Shown here: positions 2,111-55,341 of the stretch, piece by piece
How the letters are laid out: every line of letters begins with the position of its first letter
Numbering within the stretch: the first letter of the stretch is position 1
Source of the DNA: Treponema sp.
GTDB lineage: Bacteria > Spirochaetota > Spirochaetia > Treponematales > Breznakiellaceae
Reading direction: 5' to 3'
NCBI GenBank assembly: GCA_009784975.1
Contig: WQXG01000011.1
Location: 1-55,647, forward strand
Length of the DNA stretch: 55,647 bases
Notes under the pieces: model-generated
Database searches by the model: none
The model's input: the letters and a program-made list of their open reading frames with translations, nothing else
Told to the model about the DNA's origin: nothing
Position numbers and translations under genes: made by a program

Positions 2111-4059
2111 TTTATTTGCTGCTGTTCCTGCTGCTTCCTTTCTCTTTATTCGCACAGGATTTGGACGATGAATATTTTTTTGCAGAGAGCGGCGGAATCA
2201 CGATTGTAGGAACAGTGCAAACCAGTCAGCAGATGGGCGTTGTTGAAAAAGAGCAGATAGAACGCAGCAGTGCCGGTGATCTTGCAAACCTTTTGCAGGA
2301 GACGCTTGGGCTTAATATTGTCCGTTACGGCGCTTACGGGAATCAGGCGGGAATTAATTTGCGCGGGTTTGATTCAAAACGGGTTGCATTTTTGATAGAC
2401 GGGATACCGGCGAATTCTTCAATTGACGGAAAATTTGATATTAACCTGATTGATCTTAATTTAATCGAACGTATCGAGGTTATTTACGGCGGATCTGATT
2501 CTAAATACAATGTTTCCGGCGCGTTCGGAGGTATTATTAATATTATCACCGTCAGGCGGCAGGAGAAGGGATTTAAAATATCAGCTTCTGTTTCCAATAC
2601 TTCGGTTATGCCTGCTTCATACCGGAATCGAAGCGGCGAAATGCAAAATCCTCACTGGGAGGATCTTTTTGATACGCAGAATTTTTCGCTTTCCGCAGTT
2701 TATGGCGGCAGGAATTTTTCGTTTACAGCGGGCATATTTGCAAACCGCGCGGAAAATCATTTTGTTTTTATTGACTATGCAAACAATCAGCGCCGTAAAG
2801 ATAACAATGAAATTTGGGATACCGGCGCTTCTGTAACTTTTGTTTGGGAATTAAATGAACTTACAAAACTTATTTCTTCTTCTAAAATTTATTACAGTGA
2901 CAGAAATATTCCTGTTTCAGGATTTTCTGCCAATTTTGGCAGCCAAAAAGATTTTTCTGTCAGTGAAAATCTAATGCTTGATGTTCCGCGCGCTTTCCAC
3001 GATAAACTTGCAACGGAGGCTTCTTTTGGCTTTTTGTTTCATCGGCTAAATTATGCTTCGCCTTCCGGTTTGGCATCTGTTCATGATCAATTAAAGCTGA
3101 CTGTTGTAAACCGCTGGAGCTGGTTTGCAGGAAGCACTGTTACTTTCAGATACGGGATTGATTACCGTTTCACCAGCCTTGATTCTACGGAAATCGGTAT
3201 CCGTGAAAGGCACGACGGCGGTATTTATTTAACAGCAGAGATTATGCCGCTTAAACAATTGCAAATTATTCCCTCTGCAAAAGCGGTTTTTTCAAGCGGC
3301 GCAGGAGGGTATGCGGTAATACCTAAGCTTGGTTTTCTATGGAAAGCAACCGGTAATTTTGCAATAAAGAACAATTTTTTCCGCAGTTTTAAATTTCCCG
3401 ATTTTGAGGAACTTTACTGGAATAGCGGAGGTATAAATACCGGCGGAGGCTTCGGTAATCCGGATTTAGCTCCTGAAGACGGGTGGGGCGCCGATTTGGG
3501 AGTAGAATGGCGCATAACGGAAAATCTGCAAATGGAAAATACGCTTTTTGCGCAGTGGCTGCTTAATTCGATACATTGGTTTTCAAACAGCGGGGTATGG
3601 CGGCCTGAAAATGCGGGAGAAGCGGTTTTTTTCGGAATAGACAGTAAAGTTAATTTAACTATTCCTGTTTCTACCGGTTTTATAAATAAAATAACAGTTT
3701 CGCTTTCTTATCAATATTTACTTAGCTATCTTTTATGTTACGGATACACCTTCGCTTCCAATAAACGCATTCCATACAATCCGGAACATACAATAAATGG
3801 CTCTCTGGAAATATTCTGGAAAACCGGTTCGCTATCAATCAGCGCCCGCTATGAAAGTCTTCGCTACCACGACACCGCAAACATAACAGCATTAAAACCA
3901 CTTTTTTTGCTTAACGCAGGTGTTAATCAAAACATTGGAAAAAACATAACAATTTTCGGCTCTCTGCGCAATATTCTTAATACTTCATACGAATCATTTT
4001 ATGATTACCCTATGCCAGGGATTACATTATCTTTAGGCATGAGATTGGAGTTAAAATGA
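2107..4059 (+). CDS. btuB: BtuB-like TonB-dependent outer-membrane receptor
   Basis: This 650-aa protein starts at ATG 2107 (ATGA overlap with the preceding stop); an upstream GTG at 2089 would only add residues before a clear signal peptide ending PFSLFAQ. A TonB-box-like segment near GGITIVGTVQTS is followed by a plug domain (LANLLQETLGLNIVRYG, INLRGFDSKRVAFLIDGIP, IERIEVIYGG, FGGIINIIT). The remainder is a beta-barrel with the typical NPDLAPEDGWGADLGVEW block. The C-terminus is LSLGMRLELK, without the usual terminal aromatic residue. Position behind a cobalamin riboswitch and before btuFCD points to cobalamin or corrinoid import. Substrate is inferred from context, because the plug alone does not define it. 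Confidence 0.9.
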   Translation: MIYLLLFLLLPFSLFAQDLDDEYFFAESGGITIVGTVQTSQQMGVVEKEQIERSSAGDLANLLQETLGLNIVRYGAYGNQAGINLRGFDSKRVAFLIDGIPANSSIDGKFDINLIDLNLIERIEVIYGGSDSKYNVSGAFGGIINIITVRRQEKGFKISASVSNTSVMPASYRNRSGEMQNPHWEDLFDTQNFSLSAVYGGRNFSFTAGIFANRAENHFVFIDYANNQRRKDNNEIWDTGASVTFVWELNELTKLISSSKIYYSDRNIPVSGFSANFGSQKDFSVSENLMLDVPRAFHDKLATEASFGFLFHRLNYASPSGLASVHDQLKLTVVNRWSWFAGSTVTFRYGIDYRFTSLDSTEIGIRERHDGGIYLTAEIMPLKQLQIIPSAKAVFSSGAGGYAVIPKLGFLWKATGNFAIKNNFFRSFKFPDFEELYWNSGGINTGGGFGNPDLAPEDGWGADLGVEWRITENLQMENTLFAQWLLNSIHWFSNSGVWRPENAGEAVFFGIDSKVNLTIPVSTGFINKITVSLSYQYLLSYLLCYGYTFASNKRIPYNPEHTINGSLEIFWKTGSLSISARYESLRYHDTANITALKPLFLLNAGVNQNIGKNITIFGSLRNILNTSYESFYDYPMPGITLSLGMRLELK

Positions 4060-46074: not shown

Positions 46075-48219
46075 TTATTCAAAAATAGATTTTTTTATTC
46101 TGCGCAGCAGGTTTATTTTAGCAAGAGGTATGCGATGTGCATCAATTATTAAGAACAATTCGTTTCCTTCTTTTTCAAGCGCTTTGGGTATCCCAAAGAT
46201 TTTTTCTTCATCGCCGCTTTTTAACATTATAATTTCTACCGGTGACTTCTGGCTTATTGCCTGTTTTGCAATATTTTGTTTTCCGGCGTAATCCATAAGC
46301 CGGGCTTCAAGTTTTTCGTAACGAATATCTGCATCTTTTAATTGAGCTTCGCAAAGAACAAGCCTCCTGTCAATTCTTGCGGAAAGTTCCGTTCTTTCCA
46401 GATCGCTTAAGCTCATTTTTTTTAGAATAGCATGAAATTCTCCAGTTAGAACAGACTGCGGAATTGCTGAAATTTTATGATCGGGAGCCGGGACTTGGGG
46501 ATCAAGGGCAGAAGAAGCTTTGGGCTGCGTATAATAATTTGTAGCAGACATGAAAGGTTTTTGAATGTTTTTGCGCTGCGCAATAATATCGATGCCTGCG
46601 CTGCGAAGAGCGTCAATTGCATCATCATTTGCATCCTCGCCAAGCAGATACAAACCGGGTGCCAGAGTTTCTGTGATAAGCGAAGATAGCTTTTTGGTCT
46701 CTGTCAAATAACGGTGTTCTTCGGAAAGAGTTAAAATAATTCCTTTTTTTAGGGATACTTCTTTGTGACGTTTTTCCCAGTCTTTTAAATTCCAGATTAA
46801 GCTGTCCTGGGGAGTTTTATTTCCGGAAAGCCTGTTTAATAAATTTATAATTTCATCTGCGCTGATATTGCTGTCAAATGCGCAGACAGCCGAGTCCCTG
46901 TTCATTTCAAAACAAACAACAGGCGGCATAAATGCAGTTTTTTGGGTTCCGGAAAGTCCTGTTTCGCGGATGTTCAGGAAAGAAGCGAGAGTTATAGCAT
47001 CTGTAAAATTGATTTCCGGGTAAACCATGATAGAAAAACAATCAATCGCTATTACCGGTTTATCATTATTAACCTGATCCATAATATCTGCTCTTTTTAA
47101 ACCCTGGTTTGAATTTATTATCAAGCCTGTTTTTTCCATGGATTCCAGCATTTTATCTGCATTAACAATTATATACATTTTGGAAGAAAGAATTTTAATT
47201 ATTCTTTTTATGGTTTTTTCCGGATAACAGGCTTGTGAGTCTAAAGAATCGATAAACCCATGAATTAGATTTACCGTATCGTGAATTCTGGTGCGGAAGA
47301 TAGGCGGTAAAATTTCATCGGGTTGATTTCCCATGCATGGGGTGCTCTTCTCGCCTAAAACCAGCAGCGCCGCAGCAAGATATTCGCTTCTTACGCGCGC
47401 AGAAAGCTGGCTGAAATCGTTAAATTGTTTTTTGTCGGGAACAAGTTTATTTTCATCGGCGTAAAAAAGCCCAAGTGCCTGCAGAGCTCCAAGTAAATAT
47501 GTAAAATCAATACCCGGAAAAATCTTTTTTGCCTCTTCAATGACCCGTCTGCGAACAACACCTGCGGTCGTATAAAAATATTCCCATTGTGAAGCAAAGG
47601 AAATCAGGCTCGCCAGGATTAGCTCATTAAAGATTTGCCCAGAAGCTTGCTTCTCCGAAGCAAGCTTCTCATCCTTCGAAGCTTGCTTTTGTAAAGCTTG
47701 CTTCTTCAAAGGTTGAACTGTTGGGAAAAGACGGGAAGTGTTTGCAATAAAGGGATGCAGCACGGGTTTAAAAACAGGATTTAATGCAAGGTATTTGGTA
47801 GCTGCCAAACTGCCTGTTGGAAAACGGCTTGTGTACGGGTTTGTAAACAAGTTTTTTATTTTATCTTCTGTGAACCGGTACAGGATGAAGCGTTCTTCCA
47901 TGTTCACGATGATATCCTGAAGCTGCGCCTTGCTGAACTCGCAGGAGAAAAAACTTTCCAGCTGATCTGCCGTCGGTTCGTCAAGGAGGGCAACAGCAGC
48001 GATTATCTTTGCATCGTTTTCATCGATATATGACGCGATTGTTTTTTGAATATCATCGCGTAACAGAAAATTTTCCAAATCATTTAACAATTGCTGTTTG
48101 TTAAAAGGCGTTTTTATTTTTCCGAATACGCTTCTTAATAATTCATAAAATGAGTTGTCCTGCATGGTTATAACAGCGGATTTCCAGAAATCTACGGGGC
48201 GGAAAATATCTTTTTTCAT
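46075..48219 (-). CDS. XPB-helicase partner with Helicase_C_3-like domain
   Basis: This 714-aa protein overlaps the helicase stop (ATGA) and so is made together with it. The N-terminal half is helical with winged-helix-like units (FYELLRSVFGKIKTPFNKQQ, IIAAVALLDEPTADQLESFF). Residues about 370-530 resemble the PF13625 Helicase_C_3 / XPB-associated domain (PVIAIDCFSIMVYPEINFTD, VCFEMNRDSAVCAFDSNISA, LTLSEEHRYLTE, GLYLLGEDANDDAIDALRSA). It probably guides or loads the helicase. Residues about 171-193 (Lys/Gln/Ala/Ser-rich) are encoded by a palindromic repeat cluster. Function is inferred from the operon and the domain. Confidence 0.7.
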   Translation of the reverse strand: MKKDIFRPVDFWKSAVITMQDNSFYELLRSVFGKIKTPFNKQQLLNDLENFLLRDDIQKTIASYIDENDAKIIAAVALLDEPTADQLESFFSCEFSKAQLQDIIVNMEERFILYRFTEDKIKNLFTNPYTSRFPTGSLAATKYLALNPVFKPVLHPFIANTSRLFPTVQPLKKQALQKQASKDEKLASEKQASGQIFNELILASLISFASQWEYFYTTAGVVRRRVIEEAKKIFPGIDFTYLLGALQALGLFYADENKLVPDKKQFNDFSQLSARVRSEYLAAALLVLGEKSTPCMGNQPDEILPPIFRTRIHDTVNLIHGFIDSLDSQACYPEKTIKRIIKILSSKMYIIVNADKMLESMEKTGLIINSNQGLKRADIMDQVNNDKPVIAIDCFSIMVYPEINFTDAITLASFLNIRETGLSGTQKTAFMPPVVCFEMNRDSAVCAFDSNISADEIINLLNRLSGNKTPQDSLIWNLKDWEKRHKEVSLKKGIILTLSEEHRYLTETKKLSSLITETLAPGLYLLGEDANDDAIDALRSAGIDIIAQRKNIQKPFMSATNYYTQPKASSALDPQVPAPDHKISAIPQSVLTGEFHAILKKMSLSDLERTELSARIDRRLVLCEAQLKDADIRYEKLEARLMDYAGKQNIAKQAISQKSPVEIIMLKSGDEEKIFGIPKALEKEGNELFLIIDAHRIPLAKINLLRRIKKSIFE
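47641..47707. repeat. Perfect inverted repeat 13-3-13 (47641-47669) plus two further partial copies
   Basis: AGAAGCTTGCTTC and GAAGCAAGCTTCT are exact reverse complements around TCC. CGAAGCTTGCTTTTG and AAAGCTTGCTTCTTC follow at about 47677 and 47693, repeating the arm. The cluster is read in frame as KQA/KLAS/EKQAS-like residues in the helicase partner. Confidence 0.9.
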
Positions 48220-49868
48220 TTATTGTCTGTCCACCGCTGAATTGAATATTTATAACCCTGCTCGGTTAAAAACTTTTGGCGGTTAGCCGCAAATTCTTCT
48301 TCTACCGTGTAGCCGGAAACCAGCGAAAAGAACAAAGCATTGTGTCCTTTAGGCCTTAAAATTCGTCCCAGCCGCTGAGCTTCCTCCTGACGCGAACCAA
48401 AAGAGCCGGAAACCTGCACTGCCATTGAAGCATCCGGAAGATCAATGGCAAAATTCGCTACTTTTGAAACAACAATTACGCGCACTTCTCCCCGTTTAAA
48501 ACTGTTATAGATACGTTCTCTTTCTGCATTGGGAGTTTTTCCTGTTATAACCGGCGTTTTTAAAATCTTTGCAAGCGAATTGAGCTGCGATATATATTGA
48601 CCTATTACCAGCACCTGATCTTCAGGATGATTTTCTATCAATTGAAGCACAACATTTTCTTTTAATGGATTTTCTGCGGCTATCCGGTATTTTTCCCGCG
48701 GCGCTGCTGTAGCATACGGTATCTTGAGATGCTGCGGTAATTCCAGCCGTATTTCCGTGCAAATCGCTTCGGCAATCCATCCTTTGCCTTCAAGGTCTTT
48801 CCACGGCACATCATAGCGTTTTGGTCCTACAAGGCTGAAGACCGCGTCTTCTTCTCCGTCTTCGCGGATAAGCGTCGCCGTCAGCCCAAGCCGCCTGATT
48901 GCCTGAAGTTCCGCCGTTACGCGAAACACCGGCGCGGGAAGCAGATGAACTTCATCGTAAATAACAAGCCCCCATGCTCTTTCGCGGAAAAGCTTAAAAT
49001 GAGGAAACTCTCCCTCTTTATAAGGTCTCCATGAAACTATCTGATATGTTGCAACAGTTACAGGCGCAACCGATTTGGAGTCTCCCGAATACTCGGCAAT
49101 CTGTTCCCGCGTTAAATCTGTCTTGTCCAGCAATTCTTCTATCCATTGATGAACTGCCGCCACGTTAGGTGTCAGAATAAGAGTGTTGGTTTTTAACATA
49201 GACATTATCAGCATTCCGACAATCGTCTTTCCGGATCCGCATGGAAGAACCACAACCCCATACCCGTTCCCGACAGAATTAGCTGCCGTAATCTGATAAT
49301 CTCTTACAACAAAAGGTTTTCCGGAAAGGCAGGTTTCCCTCATTTGAATCTGCAAATCTTCGCCCTTTAAAAGCGGCGCCTCATCCTGCACCGGCCATCC
49401 GATCCGTATCAGTTCCCGCTTAACAGTTCCCCTGTCAATCAGGGCAAGCGAAAAACCATTCGCCGTACCCGTGATATATTTTTTAAGCGATTTCCGCTCT
49501 CCGATTTCCAGCCGAATTGCTTCATCGTCTATTTGTAAAAACAGCCTGTTTTCCGGATCTTCCCGGTCCGAAATCATTTTGATTTTCCCGTAGCGGGACA
49601 TGAGTATCGAAAACCCTTCCGTAATTCCTGCCGGTATTTCATAACGGCTGAATTCCTTGAGTATTTTAACAACATCCTGCGGCGTAAAACCCGCGCTTGC
49701 GGCGTTCCACAGGGACAAAGGGGTTATCCGGTAGGTATGAATGTGCTCAGGCGATTTTTCCAGCTCCGCAAACGGAATGATCGCCTGCCTCGCCTTTTCG
49801 GCAGATTCGCAGTGGACATCCAGGAGGAGAGTTCTGTCGCTTTGTACTATCAGCGCTTTGTCGGGCAT
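48216..49868 (-). CDS. XPB/RAD25-type SF2 DNA helicase
   Basis: This 550-aa protein has an N-terminal damage-recognition-like region followed by the helicase core: FVVRDYQITAANSVGNGYG, Walker A LPCGSGKT, DEVH box IYDEVHLLP, LGLTATL, the XPB RED motif IREDG, then VLVIGQYISQL, VSKVANFAIDLPDA and motif VI QEEAQRLGRILRPKG. XPB-type enzymes unwind DNA in repair or transcription in some bacteria, including spirochaetes. It heads an operon with a PF13625-like partner and an NYN-LOTUS nuclease. TATAAT lies eight bases upstream of the ATG with TTGAAA 17 bp before it, and no SD is seen. Confidence 0.93.
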   Translation of the reverse strand: MPDKALIVQSDRTLLLDVHCESAEKARQAIIPFAELEKSPEHIHTYRITPLSLWNAASAGFTPQDVVKILKEFSRYEIPAGITEGFSILMSRYGKIKMISDREDPENRLFLQIDDEAIRLEIGERKSLKKYITGTANGFSLALIDRGTVKRELIRIGWPVQDEAPLLKGEDLQIQMRETCLSGKPFVVRDYQITAANSVGNGYGVVVLPCGSGKTIVGMLIMSMLKTNTLILTPNVAAVHQWIEELLDKTDLTREQIAEYSGDSKSVAPVTVATYQIVSWRPYKEGEFPHFKLFRERAWGLVIYDEVHLLPAPVFRVTAELQAIRRLGLTATLIREDGEEDAVFSLVGPKRYDVPWKDLEGKGWIAEAICTEIRLELPQHLKIPYATAAPREKYRIAAENPLKENVVLQLIENHPEDQVLVIGQYISQLNSLAKILKTPVITGKTPNAERERIYNSFKRGEVRVIVVSKVANFAIDLPDASMAVQVSGSFGSRQEEAQRLGRILRPKGHNALFFSLVSGYTVEEEFAANRQKFLTEQGYKYSIQRWTDNK

Positions 49869-49954: not shown

Positions 49955-50704
49955 TTAAGTGGAATATCCATAATAATATTTTGGGTTAATGGAAATAACC
50001 AATTGTTGTTCAGTCAGGCATTTTGGTAAACATGCTTCTGGTAGCTGAGGTCCATCTTTCATATTTATACTGTTTTCATATGTTATAATTTTTGCCTGTT
50101 GATGAGCCATCCCAATTGTCAAAAATTCTCCATTAGAAAACTTATTGGCTGTATCAAGTAAATTGTTTAGATAGATAGCGCCTTCATTTGTATCATATGA
50201 TGATTGTCCTATTGAACAAGAATATAAAGCCACTTGTTGGCGCATAGATTGCATTATTCTATTATTATAATTATTTCTGATGTTTTCCAGTATTTCGCTG
50301 ACTGAAGAAAAATACATTGTTGACTTATTCATTATGCTATCACGCAAACGTTGTTGTGTTTGTACACGGCAACAATCAAAAATAGATAATTGACGAGGTG
50401 CTATATCTTTCAGTTCTGACTCCATAATATGTTCTCCTCTTCCATTAATTTCAATAACAGTCTCGCGTTTTTGTCCGCCATGTCCGCTGAATAAAACTAT
50501 TACATAATCATATTTTAATAATTTCATTTTATTTATTGTATCAAGAATCAATGAGCGGGATGGATTATAAAGAGGTGCGCCAATTTCATCTGGACGCCAT
50601 AAACCTCCATTTTCACTTCTTAAAAAAGAAGCAAAATTATCCAAGTCTTTTTTAGTACCAGCTAAACCATCTGTATTAGCTATTAAAAGAGCGCTCTTTT
50701 TCAT
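49955..50704 (-). CDS. Caspase-like cysteine protease (peptidase C14/metacaspase type)
   Basis: This 249-aa protein has the caspase-fold p20 features: KSALLIANTDGLAGTKKDLD, a run of hydrophobic strand then catalytic His75 in VLFSGHGGQKRE, and catalytic Cys112 (or Cys111) in LSIFDCCRVQ. The remaining part (QVALYSCSIGQSSYDTNEGA, IYLNNLL) fits the following strand and helix with the usual S-C-x-x-G-Q-x-x-Y-D layout. Bacterial caspase-like proteases act as death effectors in several defence systems. The ATG overlaps the stop of a small membrane protein gene (ATGA), the last of a group of four minus-strand genes beginning with an HD phosphohydrolase. The target protein is unknown. Confidence 0.85.
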   Translation of the reverse strand: MKKSALLIANTDGLAGTKKDLDNFASFLRSENGGLWRPDEIGAPLYNPSRSLILDTINKMKLLKYDYVIVLFSGHGGQKRETVIEINGRGEHIMESELKDIAPRQLSIFDCCRVQTQQRLRDSIMNKSTMYFSSVSEILENIRNNYNNRIMQSMRQQVALYSCSIGQSSYDTNEGAIYLNNLLDTANKFSNGEFLTIGMAHQQAKIITYENSINMKDGPQLPEACLPKCLTEQQLVISINPKYYYGYST

Positions 50705-51141
50705 TTAACATTACCTCCAATTAAATATTTATTAACCATTTCAACAAATGGCGCGTCATATGTATCAATATTTTCATTTGGAGCTGTAGGGTCATACCAG
50801 TATTTTTTATGTATTCTTATCCAATCTTTAACTGCTAATTCCTTTTCTATCTTTTTTGTATCATATTTATAATGGCTTGATAGTCGTGAAAGATAGTTAA
50901 ATACCATTGTAGCATACAATTCATATCTTAAAAATTTTTCATCAGTAATATCATGTTTGCTAGTCCAGCTATCTGTAAAATTCTGACTTTCAAGATATGG
51001 ATATTCTATGCCTATTTTCAACAATTCATCTAATTGGTTTTCCAGATCTTTTTTCTTGTTTGAATTGTTAATAAAAAATGTTACCAATGCAGAGGTAACG
51101 GCTGAAATAAGTGTTGCTATTGCTGCTGATGTAATGTCCAT
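50701..51141 (-). CDS. Small membrane-anchored protein coupled to the caspase-like gene
   Basis: This 146-aa protein has one N-terminal membrane helix (AAIATLISAVTSALVTFFI), a short basic-acidic helix (NNSNKKKDLENQLDELL) and a cytoplasmic helical domain with many aromatic residues (FLRYELYATMVFNYLSRLSS, WIRIHKKYWYD). I know no family for it. SD AAGGAG sits eight bases before the ATG. ATGA overlap with the caspase-like gene suggests a stoichiometric partner: an anchor, a substrate or a pore-forming effector released by cleavage are all conceivable. Confidence 0.7.
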   Translation of the reverse strand: MDITSAAIATLISAVTSALVTFFINNSNKKKDLENQLDELLKIGIEYPYLESQNFTDSWTSKHDITDEKFLRYELYATMVFNYLSRLSSHYKYDTKKIEKELAVKDWIRIHKKYWYDPTAPNENIDTYDAPFVEMVNKYLIGGNVK

Positions 51142-51225
51142 TTTTTCTCTCCTTGAATTAATAAAATATTATTTTGTTGGTTTCTATACGTTTTACCATA
51201 AGGATAGCGTTTTAGGCTTAACATC

Positions 51226-51573
51226 TTATTTTTCTTCGAAAATATCAGTAAATGATTTTGGTTTTTCCAGTTCGAATGATTTTATATCTTCGCTATCTAT
51301 TTCTTTTAACCGGTCTTTATTAATTTCGTATCGAATAAATTTGGGATTTTTACGTGATAATATACCGCATAATTGATAATAAAATATCAATTCTTCAAGC
51401 TTTGGGGAATATGGATTAACTCTGATAATAAAGTCAAAAACTTTCATTTTGTCCGGGTTTAATTTATACAAATCATAAAAAGCCTTATGTAGTGCAATAG
51501 GATCAGCGCTAAATTCATTGCCTTTAAAATCATTTAATAATTTAAAAAATATTCTTTCAGCACTTATTGTCAT
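51226..51573 (-). CDS. 115-aa protein between HD phosphohydrolase and caspase module, function unknown
   Basis: The protein is acidic and helical (AERIFFKLLNDFKGNEF, ALHKAFYDLYKLNPDKMKVF, ELIFYYQLCGILSRKNPKFI) and ends in a Glu/Lys-rich tail. No family is recognised. Its ATG overlaps the HD gene stop as TAATG, so translation is coupled. An 84-bp AT-rich gap separates it from the membrane-protein gene downstream; no convincing promoter is seen in that gap. It may be a regulator or adaptor of the HD protein. Confidence 0.65.
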   Translation of the reverse strand: MTISAERIFFKLLNDFKGNEFSADPIALHKAFYDLYKLNPDKMKVFDFIIRVNPYSPKLEELIFYYQLCGILSRKNPKFIRYEINKDRLKEIDSEDIKSFELEKPKSFTDIFEEK

Positions 51574-53144
51574 TATATTATCCCTCTTTTTACCAATGTC
51601 TTTGGTCTTGAATTTGTTGTTAGCTGAATGTTTAATTTTTCATTGATAATAGAGCTAATTTTATTATATATTTTCTCATCCAGTTTCTTATAGGGTCCAA
51701 AAACATATACAGCCCATCTATATTGTGAATAAAGGCTAAAATAATTCATTGGGGATATAGTATTGTAATTTTCCATGGCCCCATCATAATTTTGGCAATA
51801 TGCATCAACTAATTCCCTTAAATCCGGGTTTTTAGGGAATCCTAGATAAATGGTATTTGGTCCAGAATCGTCAAAACCTAAATCATGACAAATTTGTTCC
51901 CGTAATTTCTCTTGTTCATCTAATTCAGAATACTTTAAAATAGCAGGTGGTATACTAGGAAGCATATTTGTATTATTTTCTATAGATAGAGGTGTAATTC
52001 TGACATATCTTATGGGTATATCACGTTTAGCAATTATTTCTTGGAGTTGTTTAATAACTGAAGAATTAGTTTGACCAATTAAAAAATCCCAGTCTGTTAA
52101 ATCTAAAAAATCAATCACTTCTTTCAGCTTTATACCTTGTAAAGTAAATGATGACGGATTCTTGCGAAGAATATTTAAAATATTTTTTACAACCTGATTA
52201 GTTGCAAGTACTTTTTGGTGATTATATACTGTTGAATACAGAGAAACTTTACTTAATACCAGATGATCGTAAGATGATACTGAATTAATATTTAGAACTA
52301 TGCTTTTCCGCTTTCCTTTTTCAAGAGGCACATCTCCAATTGATAATCCAGAAATAAATTTTTCAGCATCTGTACCTAATGCAAGACCTGTAAAAAAGCT
52401 GTCCCTAAATGTATAATCTAATCTGTCAGCATCATAAGGTCCATTTACAATGTCTGATATATACGCACGCTCCGGATTTCCATCAACGGGGCGCCCCATT
52501 ATCATATCAGAAATACGTCCTAGGGTATCACTTGGTATTCTAATAGGATTTGGATTATTTGATTTTACAGCTTCTTCAAACATAGATAAAAATGATGGCG
52601 TTTTAACAATTACACCAGACAGGAGTTCGTGGTTTTTAGGTTTTATTTTCATGTATGGTTGAACAGAATTCTCCAATTCATCTTTTACATCACTAATAAA
52701 CGTATAGTATGAATAAAGCCCCTCCGTCAGATGAGAAAGCGTTGAATGTCCTATGTCATGGAGTAAGCAGGCAAGCCTGACTTCCTGTTCATCCAATTCT
52801 GAAAACACATGTACTCGCCCCTGTGTTTTTTCTTTACGATTGATAGATTCCATTATTAGAGTCGCACAATGGAGCATCCCTAACGAATGATCGAAACGAG
52901 TATGTAATGCAGAAGGATAGGTTAAATTTACCAATCCTGTTTGATGTATCCGCCGCAGTCTTTGCAAAAGGGGAGAATCAAGAATCGATATCTCAAGTGG
53001 TGATAGGGACATCATACCCCAAACAGGGTCTTTTATGACCTTATTTTCCGAAATATGCCTTGGCGTATAGTTTTTAAGCCATTTTTTTACCCAACTATCA
53101 ACTTTGCTAGTTAGTTTGTCAAACATTGTTTCATTTGGTTGCAT
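51573..53144 (-). CDS. HD-superfamily phosphohydrolase (SAMHD1/dNTPase-like)
   Basis: This 523-aa protein has the HD metal site: LHTRFDHSLGMLH (His86, His92), ACLLHDIGHSTLSHLTEG (His129-Asp130, His133, His138), and the later Asp in VNGPYDADRLDYTFRDS. The opening IKDPVWGMMSLSPLEISILD and LLQRLRRIHQTG match the SAMHD1-like dNTP triphosphohydrolase branch, which degrades dNTPs and restricts viruses. The C-terminal 270 residues are family-specific and unrecognised. It is first of the four-gene cassette. TTGACA (53184-53179) with TAGTTT (53161-53156) 17 bp further gives a plausible promoter. No SD is present before ATG 53144; an ATG at codon 7 is possible. Confidence 0.85.
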   Translation of the reverse strand: MQPNETMFDKLTSKVDSWVKKWLKNYTPRHISENKVIKDPVWGMMSLSPLEISILDSPLLQRLRRIHQTGLVNLTYPSALHTRFDHSLGMLHCATLIMESINRKEKTQGRVHVFSELDEQEVRLACLLHDIGHSTLSHLTEGLYSYYTFISDVKDELENSVQPYMKIKPKNHELLSGVIVKTPSFLSMFEEAVKSNNPNPIRIPSDTLGRISDMIMGRPVDGNPERAYISDIVNGPYDADRLDYTFRDSFFTGLALGTDAEKFISGLSIGDVPLEKGKRKSIVLNINSVSSYDHLVLSKVSLYSTVYNHQKVLATNQVVKNILNILRKNPSSFTLQGIKLKEVIDFLDLTDWDFLIGQTNSSVIKQLQEIIAKRDIPIRYVRITPLSIENNTNMLPSIPPAILKYSELDEQEKLREQICHDLGFDDSGPNTIYLGFPKNPDLRELVDAYCQNYDGAMENYNTISPMNYFSLYSQYRWAVYVFGPYKKLDEKIYNKISSIINEKLNIQLTTNSRPKTLVKRGII

Positions 53145-53491: not shown

Positions 53492-54874
53492 ATGAAACAA
53501 GGTAATGAGATAAAAGGTTTTTGGTGGTTACCAGAACAACCGGAAAACAGAACTGCTGGTGTCTTGTATAAATCTAATGAAGGAACCCATTTATTAGAAC
53601 TATTTGGAAATATTGAAGGTAAACGTTTCTTTACAACCAGCAATAAATATCCAATAATTAATGGTTTTTCATCAAAAGGCAGAAAATATACTCTTTTTGA
53701 TACTTTTATTAAAAATCAAACATCAAGTGCTCCCGGATTTACTGAAATTACAATTTTAGCAAATATAGTACTGGAAAATATTTTATTAGGAAAGAAGGAG
53801 GATTTAAAATTAAAAGCAATAAGTACATCTTTCTTATTCTTAGATGATTGGATTATGATTAATGGTTTTAGTCGATCTGATAATTGTTCAGCAAAAACAA
53901 AAATAGAGTATAAGCTGCCAAGTTCAATTGAATACGATATAAATAAAGAATTTTGCTTAAAAATAAATTTTCAATGCTTTCCATCACCATCAGTTATAAA
54001 TACTAAAGAAGTTGCAGTAAAACAAACAGTAGAAATAAAAATAGAAGGCTCTGAAAATAATTTAGATTACTATATGGAAAAGATATATATATTTAAATGT
54101 TTGTTGATGTTGTTTATTAATAACTATACCAATACAAGTAATATACGAGTTGAAGCAATAGGAGAGAACAATGAACATATAATAGTTCCAATATATTTTT
54201 CTGATGATAAACAAAAAATAAATAAAAAGGAAATGATATTCACAGAATTCATAGCTACTTATTCAAATATAAAGGATGAATTTCTTGATATATTAAATTA
54301 TTGGTATTCAAGTTATAATAAATTATCAAATTCATACTCTTTATTTTTTGATACTTCTTTTAAATCTGGATTAAATCTAGAAAATAAATTCCTTAATCTT
54401 ATTAATGCCCTTGAGAGTTATCATAGAAATAATAATAATTTTGTATCTTCTTATATGGATAAAGAAGAGTATTTGTCCGGCATGTACCATAAGCTAATAA
54501 AAAATATTCCTAGTTCTATTGAACAAGATTTTCAAGAAGCATTAAAATCAAGAATTAAATTCGGTTATGAATATTCATTAAGAAGAAGATTAAAAGAATT
54601 ATTTTCTTCTAATAATAATTTTTTAAATAATTTTATTTATGATGCAGAAATTTTGCAAAAAGAAATTATTGATTCACGAAATTATTATACACATTATGAT
54701 GAAAAATCAAAATTTGTAAAAGATGGTATTGAGTTGTATTATCTTTGTGAAAAAATTATCGTTATTTTTATTTCATTACTACTTTTTGATTTAAAATTTA
54801 GTAATGATGATATTATAGGAATATTGAAAAATCAAGAAAAAATGCAAAGGATTATAAGAATTTCATCAAAGTAA
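53492..54874 (+). CDS. ApeA-like anti-phage HEPN protein
   Basis: This 460-aa protein opens like the ApeA N-terminal domain (IKGFWWLPEQPENRTAGVLY, then HLLELFGNIEG) and ends with a HEPN-type helical domain carrying an R-x4-H motif (SRNYYTHYD, about residues 397-402). The region ALESYHRNNNNF and the block RIKFGYEYSLRRRLKELF are also typical of the ApeA C-terminal part. Known ApeA proteins are abortive-infection RNases that stop growth after phage infection. It is very AT-rich, unlike the housekeeping genes, and divergent from the HD/caspase cassette. The start ATG 53492 has no good SD. Family call is by pattern recognition only. Confidence 0.8.
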   Translation: MKQGNEIKGFWWLPEQPENRTAGVLYKSNEGTHLLELFGNIEGKRFFTTSNKYPIINGFSSKGRKYTLFDTFIKNQTSSAPGFTEITILANIVLENILLGKKEDLKLKAISTSFLFLDDWIMINGFSRSDNCSAKTKIEYKLPSSIEYDINKEFCLKINFQCFPSPSVINTKEVAVKQTVEIKIEGSENNLDYYMEKIYIFKCLLMLFINNYTNTSNIRVEAIGENNEHIIVPIYFSDDKQKINKKEMIFTEFIATYSNIKDEFLDILNYWYSSYNKLSNSYSLFFDTSFKSGLNLENKFLNLINALESYHRNNNNFVSSYMDKEEYLSGMYHKLIKNIPSSIEQDFQEALKSRIKFGYEYSLRRRLKELFSSNNNFLNNFIYDAEILQKEIIDSRNYYTHYDEKSKFVKDGIELYYLCEKIIVIFISLLLFDLKFSNDDIIGILKNQEKMQRIIRISSK

Positions 54875-55043: not shown

Positions 55044-55341
55044 ATGACTTACAGTAAAGAAGAAAAAGCGATGTGGCTTGAAGATTGGTGGCAAAGCGGC
55101 AAAGCCATGGGACACATACGCGATGGAAAACAGACTTATTCCGCAAACATTTGTAACATGGGCAAAAAAAATTATTAAAGAAAAGTCTAGATTTGAAGAA
55201 ATAAAGCAAGAGCGGAAACCTGAGTTAAATGCATCAGGAATAGTTCTCAAAAAAAAGGGGAATTTATTAATGCATCTCCACTTTGGAATTAACGGCAATG
55301 ACCTGAGTACAGTAATTGAAAGCCAACGAGCGTTTATATGA
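55044..55341 (+). pseudogene. Frameshifted IS66-type accessory ORF (TnpA-like) remnant
   Basis: ATG 55044 has a good SD (GGAGGG, six bases) and starts MTYSKEEKAMWLEDWWQSGK, as IS66 OrfA-like proteins do. After about base 55100 the homologous text continues in the next frame: KPWDTYAMENRLIPQTFVTW, then a C-terminal HLHFGINGNDLSTVIESQ resembling the family ending. The original frame runs on to an early stop near 55170. A single-base insertion or two-base deletion explains this. No tnpB or transposase follows, so it is a dead fragment. Confidence 0.75.

Follow-up and report, generated by a model that had tools for sequence, protein, structure and literature searches.

Do four adjacent genes near the right end of a Treponema sp. 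contig form one four-part defence system, or are they two systems that stand side by side? The window analysed here is one whole contig (C11, WQXG01000011.1; 55,647 bases) of assembly GCA_009784975.1, which comprises 2.6 Mb in 73 contigs. Its minus strand carries four open reading frames (ORFs), encoding a SAMHD1-like HD protein, a protein of 115 amino acids (aa), a 146-aa protein with a single transmembrane (TM) segment and a caspase-like protease. An earlier note on this DNA had proposed them as one new four-part system. The order, overlaps and relatives of the genes suggest a different answer as the best reading: two independent two-gene defence modules, one hydrolysing deoxynucleoside triphosphates (dNTPs) and the other a membrane-caspase module, adjacent head to tail in an island of low guanine-plus-cytosine (G+C) content. 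We put the probability of two independent modules at roughly 60%. The features concerned are as follows.

51573..53144, minus strand: pair 1 gene A, SAMHD1-like HD protein, 523 aa (Pfam, phmmer, conserved residues)
52755..52760, minus strand: codons of the HD motif, His129-Asp130 (sequence, alignment)
51226..51573, minus strand: pair 1 gene B, for the 115-aa small partner, a divergent protein of the HD-partner family (held-out model, shuffles, alignment)
51142..51225, minus strand: 84-bp gap between the pairs (sequence, site scan)
50701..51141, minus strand: pair 2 gene A, for the 146-aa protein with its single TM segment at the N terminus (relatives, hydropathy)
51067..51138, minus strand: TM segment, residues 2-25 (Kyte-Doolittle scan)
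49955..50704, minus strand: pair 2 gene B, single-domain caspase-like protease, 249 aa (Pfam, tree)
50480..50482, minus strand: catalytic His75 codon (sequence; SGHGG in 6/6 caspases compared)
50369..50371, minus strand: catalytic Cys112 codon (sequence; D-x-C-R in 6/6 caspases compared)
53492..54874, plus strand: ApeA-like HEPN gene, divergent neighbour outside both pairs (Pfam, PADLOC)

The four same-strand ORFs and both couplings described in the earlier note were confirmed in the sequence. The HD stop and the 115-aa start have one base in common (TAATG), and the TM stop and the caspase start overlap by four bases (ATGA). Genes 2 and 3 stand 84 bp apart (51142-51225), and overlaps fall inside the pairs, never between them. 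All four genes together were found in no other locus examined, and the two pairs occur apart, so the proposal of a new four-part system did not hold. We searched nine genomes or records carrying pair 1 (G138, G571-G573, G575, G576 and W01-W03, several of them plasmids or fragments) with a caspase model (A7, E up to 0.01), and none of the nine gave a match; the tenth pair-1 locus, L039, had no caspase match within its locus, the only part covered. Models of the HD protein and its partner had no match in the TM/caspase loci L128, L142 and L122-L125. The conserved linkage of the small proteins on which the four-part proposal depended was therefore found in halves, the 115-aa protein going with HD and the 146-aa protein with the caspase, and neither with both. 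Separate occurrence elsewhere, together with overlaps confined to the pairs, favours two modules.

The HD protein and its small partner

The HD protein matched Pfam HD above the cut-off (5.2e-8). Its nearest solved relatives by sequence were 2q14, 2hek and SAMHD1 (phmmer 7e-25 to 5e-20; 2q14 7.4e-25, SAMHD1 4.8e-20), while an E. coli-type dGTPase gave 0.036, in agreement with the SAMHD1-like identity first assigned to it. When SAMHD1 chains were aligned with the HD protein, the HD region and a later D-x-D aligned. R83, H86, H129, D130, D240 and H138/E141 were unchanged across all 11 partnered HD proteins, and both the metal-binding H..HD..D residues and the active-site HE dyad of SAMHD1-like HD phosphohydrolases are present. 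The HD protein may also share the dNTP hydrolysis and nucleotide-driven oligomerisation of that class. Residues of the R83/H86/H129/D130/D240 type are, we presume, the metal ligands of SAMHD1. H138 and E141 are spaced as in the HE dyad that PMC12265719 reports for the Clover protein CloA.

The HD query matched 79 of 392 phylum genomes at 1e-10; at 1e-15 it matched 4 of 195 family genomes, G557 not among them. The single HD sequence gave no match as a whole-collection query, and a query with alignment A1 yielded at least 437 relatives. We examined 120 other HD loci, namely 29 from phylum genomes, 9 from plasmid records (40 such records matched HD), 80 from the genome scan (the best 80 of the at least 437 relatives) and 2 from viral-class contigs. 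In 10 of the 120, HD was immediately preceded by a gene whose product is a small protein (126-149 aa), at a distance of -26 to 46 bp. Four of these loci are L004 (same family), L042 (Clostridiaceae), L043 (Acidobacteriaceae) and L046 (Rhodobacteraceae), and six lie on plasmids or viral-class contigs (plasmids L033, L036, L037 and L039; also L129 and L130).

As the sole query, the 115-aa protein retrieved only itself from 296 phylum genomes; its family was recovered through the HD neighbours. A hidden Markov model (HMM) of the ten partners was run against 5,816 ORFs, representing all loci collected at that stage, window included. The held-out 115-aa protein ranked first outside the training set (E 0.0038), followed by the next unrelated ORF at E 0.84. 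Its score was reached by none of 5,000 shuffles, and Q67, N76 and P77 were unchanged in all 11 partners (alignment A12). Neither the 115-aa nor the 146-aa protein had a Pfam match at E up to 1. The AlphaFold2 model of the 115-aa protein was too poor for a fold search (predicted local distance difference test, pLDDT, 58), and the partner alignment matched PDB profiles with nothing better than 0.54.

A tree of 119 HD proteins was built from the window and 118 of the 120 loci, with L005 left out and L048 removed by the filter, and with quick Shimodaira-Hasegawa-like approximate likelihood ratio test (SH-aLRT) support and no bootstrap; the HD gene of L046, split into two ORFs, was used unaltered. 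The 11 partnered HD proteins fell on one side of a branch (SH-aLRT 96), and the partner label required 1 change, compared with a shuffled mean of 10.6. The window HD protein grouped with L004, L042 and L043 (support 98). Since the partnered HD proteins form one clade, partner and HD were probably inherited together.

Five of the ten partnered HD proteins (L033, L036, L037, L129 and L130) carry a C-terminal extension in which the pattern G-G-x-x-D-x9-E-N-K plus Q-x-R-R-Y is invariant. We take this extension to be PD-(D/E)xK nuclease-like, a label that depends on the motif, the PDB profile search with the extension having returned nothing better than 0.54; no Pfam nuclease match was found for L033, L037 or L129. 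A resembling stretch (E-I-K) lies in a separate ORF at L046, the annotated L039 HD protein ends at 437 aa next to a transposase gene, and the length of the HD proteins of L004, L042 and L043, and of the window, leaves no room for such an extension.

Pair 1 would join a SAMHD1-like enzyme to a dedicated small partner, in some relatives with a nuclease-like extension. The HD protein is predicted to be a metal-dependent nucleotide triphosphohydrolase that the partner restrains, activates or targets. On infection, its removal of dNTPs would leave phage replication short of substrate. Given the PD-(D/E)xK-like domain on five of ten relatives, the HD/partner pair may act there as a sensor for the fused nuclease. 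A regulated dNTP triphosphohydrolase of this kind would resemble other defence dNTPases (PMC12265719). For both pairs, the analysis itself shows the pairings, the probable co-inheritance, the catalytic residues and the TM segment, and from these we infer the enzyme activities, the triggers, the defence function and which partner controls which.

Three further observations were made around HD genes. At L036, L037, L039, L129 and L130, a divergent gene for a 137-155-aa protein lies upstream of the small/HD pair; its product has a sub-threshold MerR match in 4/5 cases, and it may act as a regulator where the pair takes this form. At L004:1-3970 (G138), all genes are on one strand, and the small/HD pair is flanked by a gene for a 230-aa KYGYP-repeat protein (3278-3970) and by a radical-SAM-like ORF (2-916), an arrangement that we take to resemble a peptide natural product locus. 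Outside the partnered group, the HD relatives at L007, L012 and L044 have a small upstream gene (126, 183 and 145 aa) whose product the partner model does not match; HD proteins may recruit small partners repeatedly.

The membrane protein and the caspase

By hydropathy, the 146-aa protein has a single TM segment (residues 2-25), as had been proposed, and the other three proteins have none. The caspase matched Pfam Peptidase_C14 (PF00656) above the cut-off (5.2e-13, residues 3-193), its sole domain over the cut-off. The catalytic residues named in the earlier note are in place, with His75 in SGHGG (from residue 73) and Cys112 in DCCR (from residue 110). The dyad is kept in 6/6 caspases, and the protein has the caspase domain with His/Cys dyad of the C14 family.

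Relatives of the TM protein were found at L123, L125, L127, L128, L141 and L142 (33-51% identity). With its own genome counted, it had matches in 2 genomes among 392 of the phylum and in 4 among 195 of the same family; elsewhere it was found on 6 Leptospira plasmids among 72,556 records and on one viral-collection contig, and among 50,697 phage records there was none. The caspase query and the TM query matched the identical 6 plasmids and no other of the 72,556 records. The neighbourhoods of four of the six plasmids were examined (L122-L125). The TM gene immediately precedes the caspase gene in L123 and L124; L122 has a shortened 101-aa TM ORF 143 bp upstream of the caspase, and in L125 the TM gene is followed by a truncated caspase, which was used unaltered. 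On the prophage-like contig L128 and in the same-genus genome G557 (L142), a helix-turn-helix (HTH) gene, the TM gene and the caspase gene follow one another in this order.

In a caspase tree, the six caspases beside membrane-protein genes grouped against 29 controls (support 99/93); the controls were 29 of 30 C14 loci, 144 columns were kept, and there was a warning of long branches meeting. Peptidase_C14 is common in the same family (49/107 genomes), with 11 matches in the window's own genome, 2 in G138 and 1 in G177, and the TM protein was found beside none of the ordinary C14 caspases at 30 same-family loci (flanks of about 1.5 kb). The nearest relative of the window caspase is that of L146 (45% identity). 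Its gene lies among phage head genes (L146:3180-4747), presumably those for terminase and portal, and is followed by an overlapping gene for a 298-aa multi-TM protein unrelated to the TM protein. No paper on phage-encoded caspases was found in the literature searched.

A 498-aa protein at L143 with a weak match to the TM model was rejected as a relative, the match covering 36 residues with no TM segment. TM searches centred on the genomes of L042 (299 genomes) and L043 (109 genomes), run without a positive control, gave no credible match. The AlphaFold2 model of the TM protein had a pLDDT of 56, too poor for a fold search; the TM alignment matched PDB profiles with nothing better than 0.54, and the 7 TM relatives had no match better than 0.015.

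Pair 2 is a minimal membrane-protein/caspase pair that occurs on a prophage-like contig, plasmids and chromosomes. Its membrane protein could be a sensor or platform, or else the substrate of the caspase, and the caspase, once activated, would arrest the infected cell or kill it.

Several neighbouring arrangements were also recorded. TM genes without a neighbouring caspase of this type lie at L131:7697-8128 and L141:6153-6584, in two same-genus genomes. At L122:6829-9075 and L123:6829-9075, the TM/caspase genes are followed on the same strand by genes for a DEAD/DEAH helicase and a 110-aa protein, with insertion-sequence genes around. The window's own genome has six same-strand Peptidase_C14 caspase matches within about 15 kb (G000:C22:858-15533).

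Two modules weighed against the alternatives

The neighbouring ApeA-like gene was correctly recognised by the earlier note, matching PF18862 (4.7e-39), PF18739 (8e-27) and PADLOC PDC-S58 (8.9e-79). Its G+C content, 0.237, is the lowest among six genes measured; the HD, 115-aa, TM and caspase genes have 0.338, 0.264, 0.293 and 0.324. The window as a whole has 0.412, and the gene at 48216-49868 has 0.471. Low G+C across the four genes and the ApeA-like gene is as expected of an acquired island. As to the putative IS remnants of the earlier note, the frame at 55051-55341 had no significant Pfam match.

A number of observations count against two independent defence modules. The four genes are on the same strand. 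Within the 84-bp gap, a ribosome-site-like AAGGAG precedes the TM start, and the minus strand shows nothing resembling a promoter or terminator. The minus-strand scan gave 24 promoter-like sites (22.6 in shuffles) and 1 terminator-like site (1.6 in shuffles); promoter-like matches in the 115-aa gene were no more frequent than in shuffles, and the single terminator-like site lies early in the TM gene (51099-51080). With one strand and such a gap, the four genes may well share a transcript. The two pairs occur together in the window only, and few lineages besides the window have either (pair 1, 10 loci; pair 2, about 4 lineages). The HD-first gene order is likewise confined to the window, the partner being upstream in the other 10 loci. 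The similarity of the 115-aa protein to the partner family spans about 38 residues, and comparing it by hhalign with a profile of five partners gave no significant result (E 0.14). The same protein has a weak NCBIfam MoeB match (0.0012; 18 bits, cut-off 633) with a score resembling its partner-model score; 0/10 other partners match MoeB, and we treated the match as chance. No caspase of this type adjoins the TM gene of G177 or of G548, both same-genus genomes, and model A7 had no match elsewhere in G177. The defence role of both pairs is itself predicted from sequence.

The best-surviving alternative, possible yet clearly less probable than two modules, is a single four-gene system with HD/115-aa as nucleotide-sensing front end and TM/caspase as effector. 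In it, a change in dNTPs on infection would be relayed by HD/115-aa and release a caspase held at the membrane, the TM/caspase effector standing in for the PD-(D/E)xK-like domain that some HD relatives carry as a fusion. The shared strand and the gap free of promoter- or terminator-like sites speak for this. An effector swap is also conceivable from the nuclease-like domain found on 5/10 HD relatives and absent from the window HD protein. In L128 and L142 an HTH gene lies upstream of TM/caspase; in the window HD/115-aa take that place. Against it stand the single occurrence, the existence of each pair without the other elsewhere and the overlaps inside the pairs and not between them. Stated in full, as one immune system in which a SAMHD1-like sensor/hydrolase and its partner control a membrane caspase, turn phage-induced dNTP changes into proteolytic death and have exchanged a nuclease for a mobile TM-caspase pair, it is slightly less probable still, with a probability of about one in four.

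A further proposal, also rather unlikely, concerns pair 2 and is compatible with one system or two. The TM protein would be the killing agent, cut by the caspase so that the freed N-terminal helix, or an oligomer of it, harms the membrane in the manner of gasdermin, with an unrelated protein. All six grouped caspases adjoin a membrane-protein gene, and the membrane partner at L146 is an unrelated multi-TM protein, which suggests that a membrane partner itself matters and not its sequence. The TM genes lacking an adjoining caspase in G177 and G548, and the poor TM model (pLDDT 56), argue the other way.

That HD/115-aa is a metabolic dNTPase or nucleotide-salvage pair and not a defence module is improbable: HD relatives are indeed common (79/392 phylum genomes at 1e-10), but the partnered type is rare (10/120 HD loci) and 6/10 partnered loci are on plasmids or viral-class contigs.

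The window arrangement also lends itself to testing if modules of these kinds can combine.

Comparison with known systems

Neither pair has a name in the family libraries and literature searched. Neither was found described in open-licence full-text literature, a body mostly without subscription papers and hence weak evidence of novelty. Gasdermin-caspase and Thoeris-caspase systems, as listed in PMC12799240, have a caspase-family protease in common with pair 2, but the four genes here gave no gasdermin or TIR Pfam match. Canu, also in PMC12799240, likewise has a caspase gene within a small defence operon. It has a downstream pro-nuclease, CanC, and an Ig-like domain in CanA, whereas the four genes here gave no nuclease or Ig-like match, and a membrane protein takes the partner's place. 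Further caspase gene pairs, EACC2 and TRADD-N, are described in PMC8195603.

For pair 1, the PADLOC dGTPase is also an HD phosphohydrolase, and its model matched (1.2e-5); the match is confined to residues 55-141, and pair 1 has a dedicated small partner. Clover (PMC12265719) pairs the dNTPase CloA with CloB, a Pol-beta-type nucleotidyltransferase. Pair 1 is similar in having a dNTPase-like HD protein with an operon partner and conserved HD and HE residues. It differs in that SAMHD1 (5e-20) is a closer relative of its HD protein than the E. coli-type dGTPase is (0.036), and its partner is the 115-aa protein; no Pfam match to a CloB-type nucleotidyltransferase was found in the four genes at E up to 1.

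The closest parallel to pair 2 is the EACC1-caspase system, a predicted two-gene membrane-associated conflict system (Kaur et al. 2020, PMC7159879). In that proposal, the single-TM product of the 5' gene acts as sensor at the membrane and switches on the caspase, and pair 2 has the same order of a 5' single-TM gene and a 3' caspase gene. NCBIfam NF047832 was the top NCBIfam match for 5/5 caspases scanned, but its cut-off (140 bits) was reached by 0/5 (16.1-30.4 bits). The TM protein, in which the TM segment is N-terminal, matched no EACC1 model, though the libraries searched may hold none, and the window caspase (249 aa) is without the variable C-terminal effector domain. Because of the scores far below the cut-off and the missing C-terminal effector, we did not file pair 2 as a member of EACC1-caspase. 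It looks as if pair 2 works like that system. Compact and without an effector domain, pair 2 resembles a predicted membrane-caspase system and could reveal how a bacterial caspase gets switched on at the membrane.

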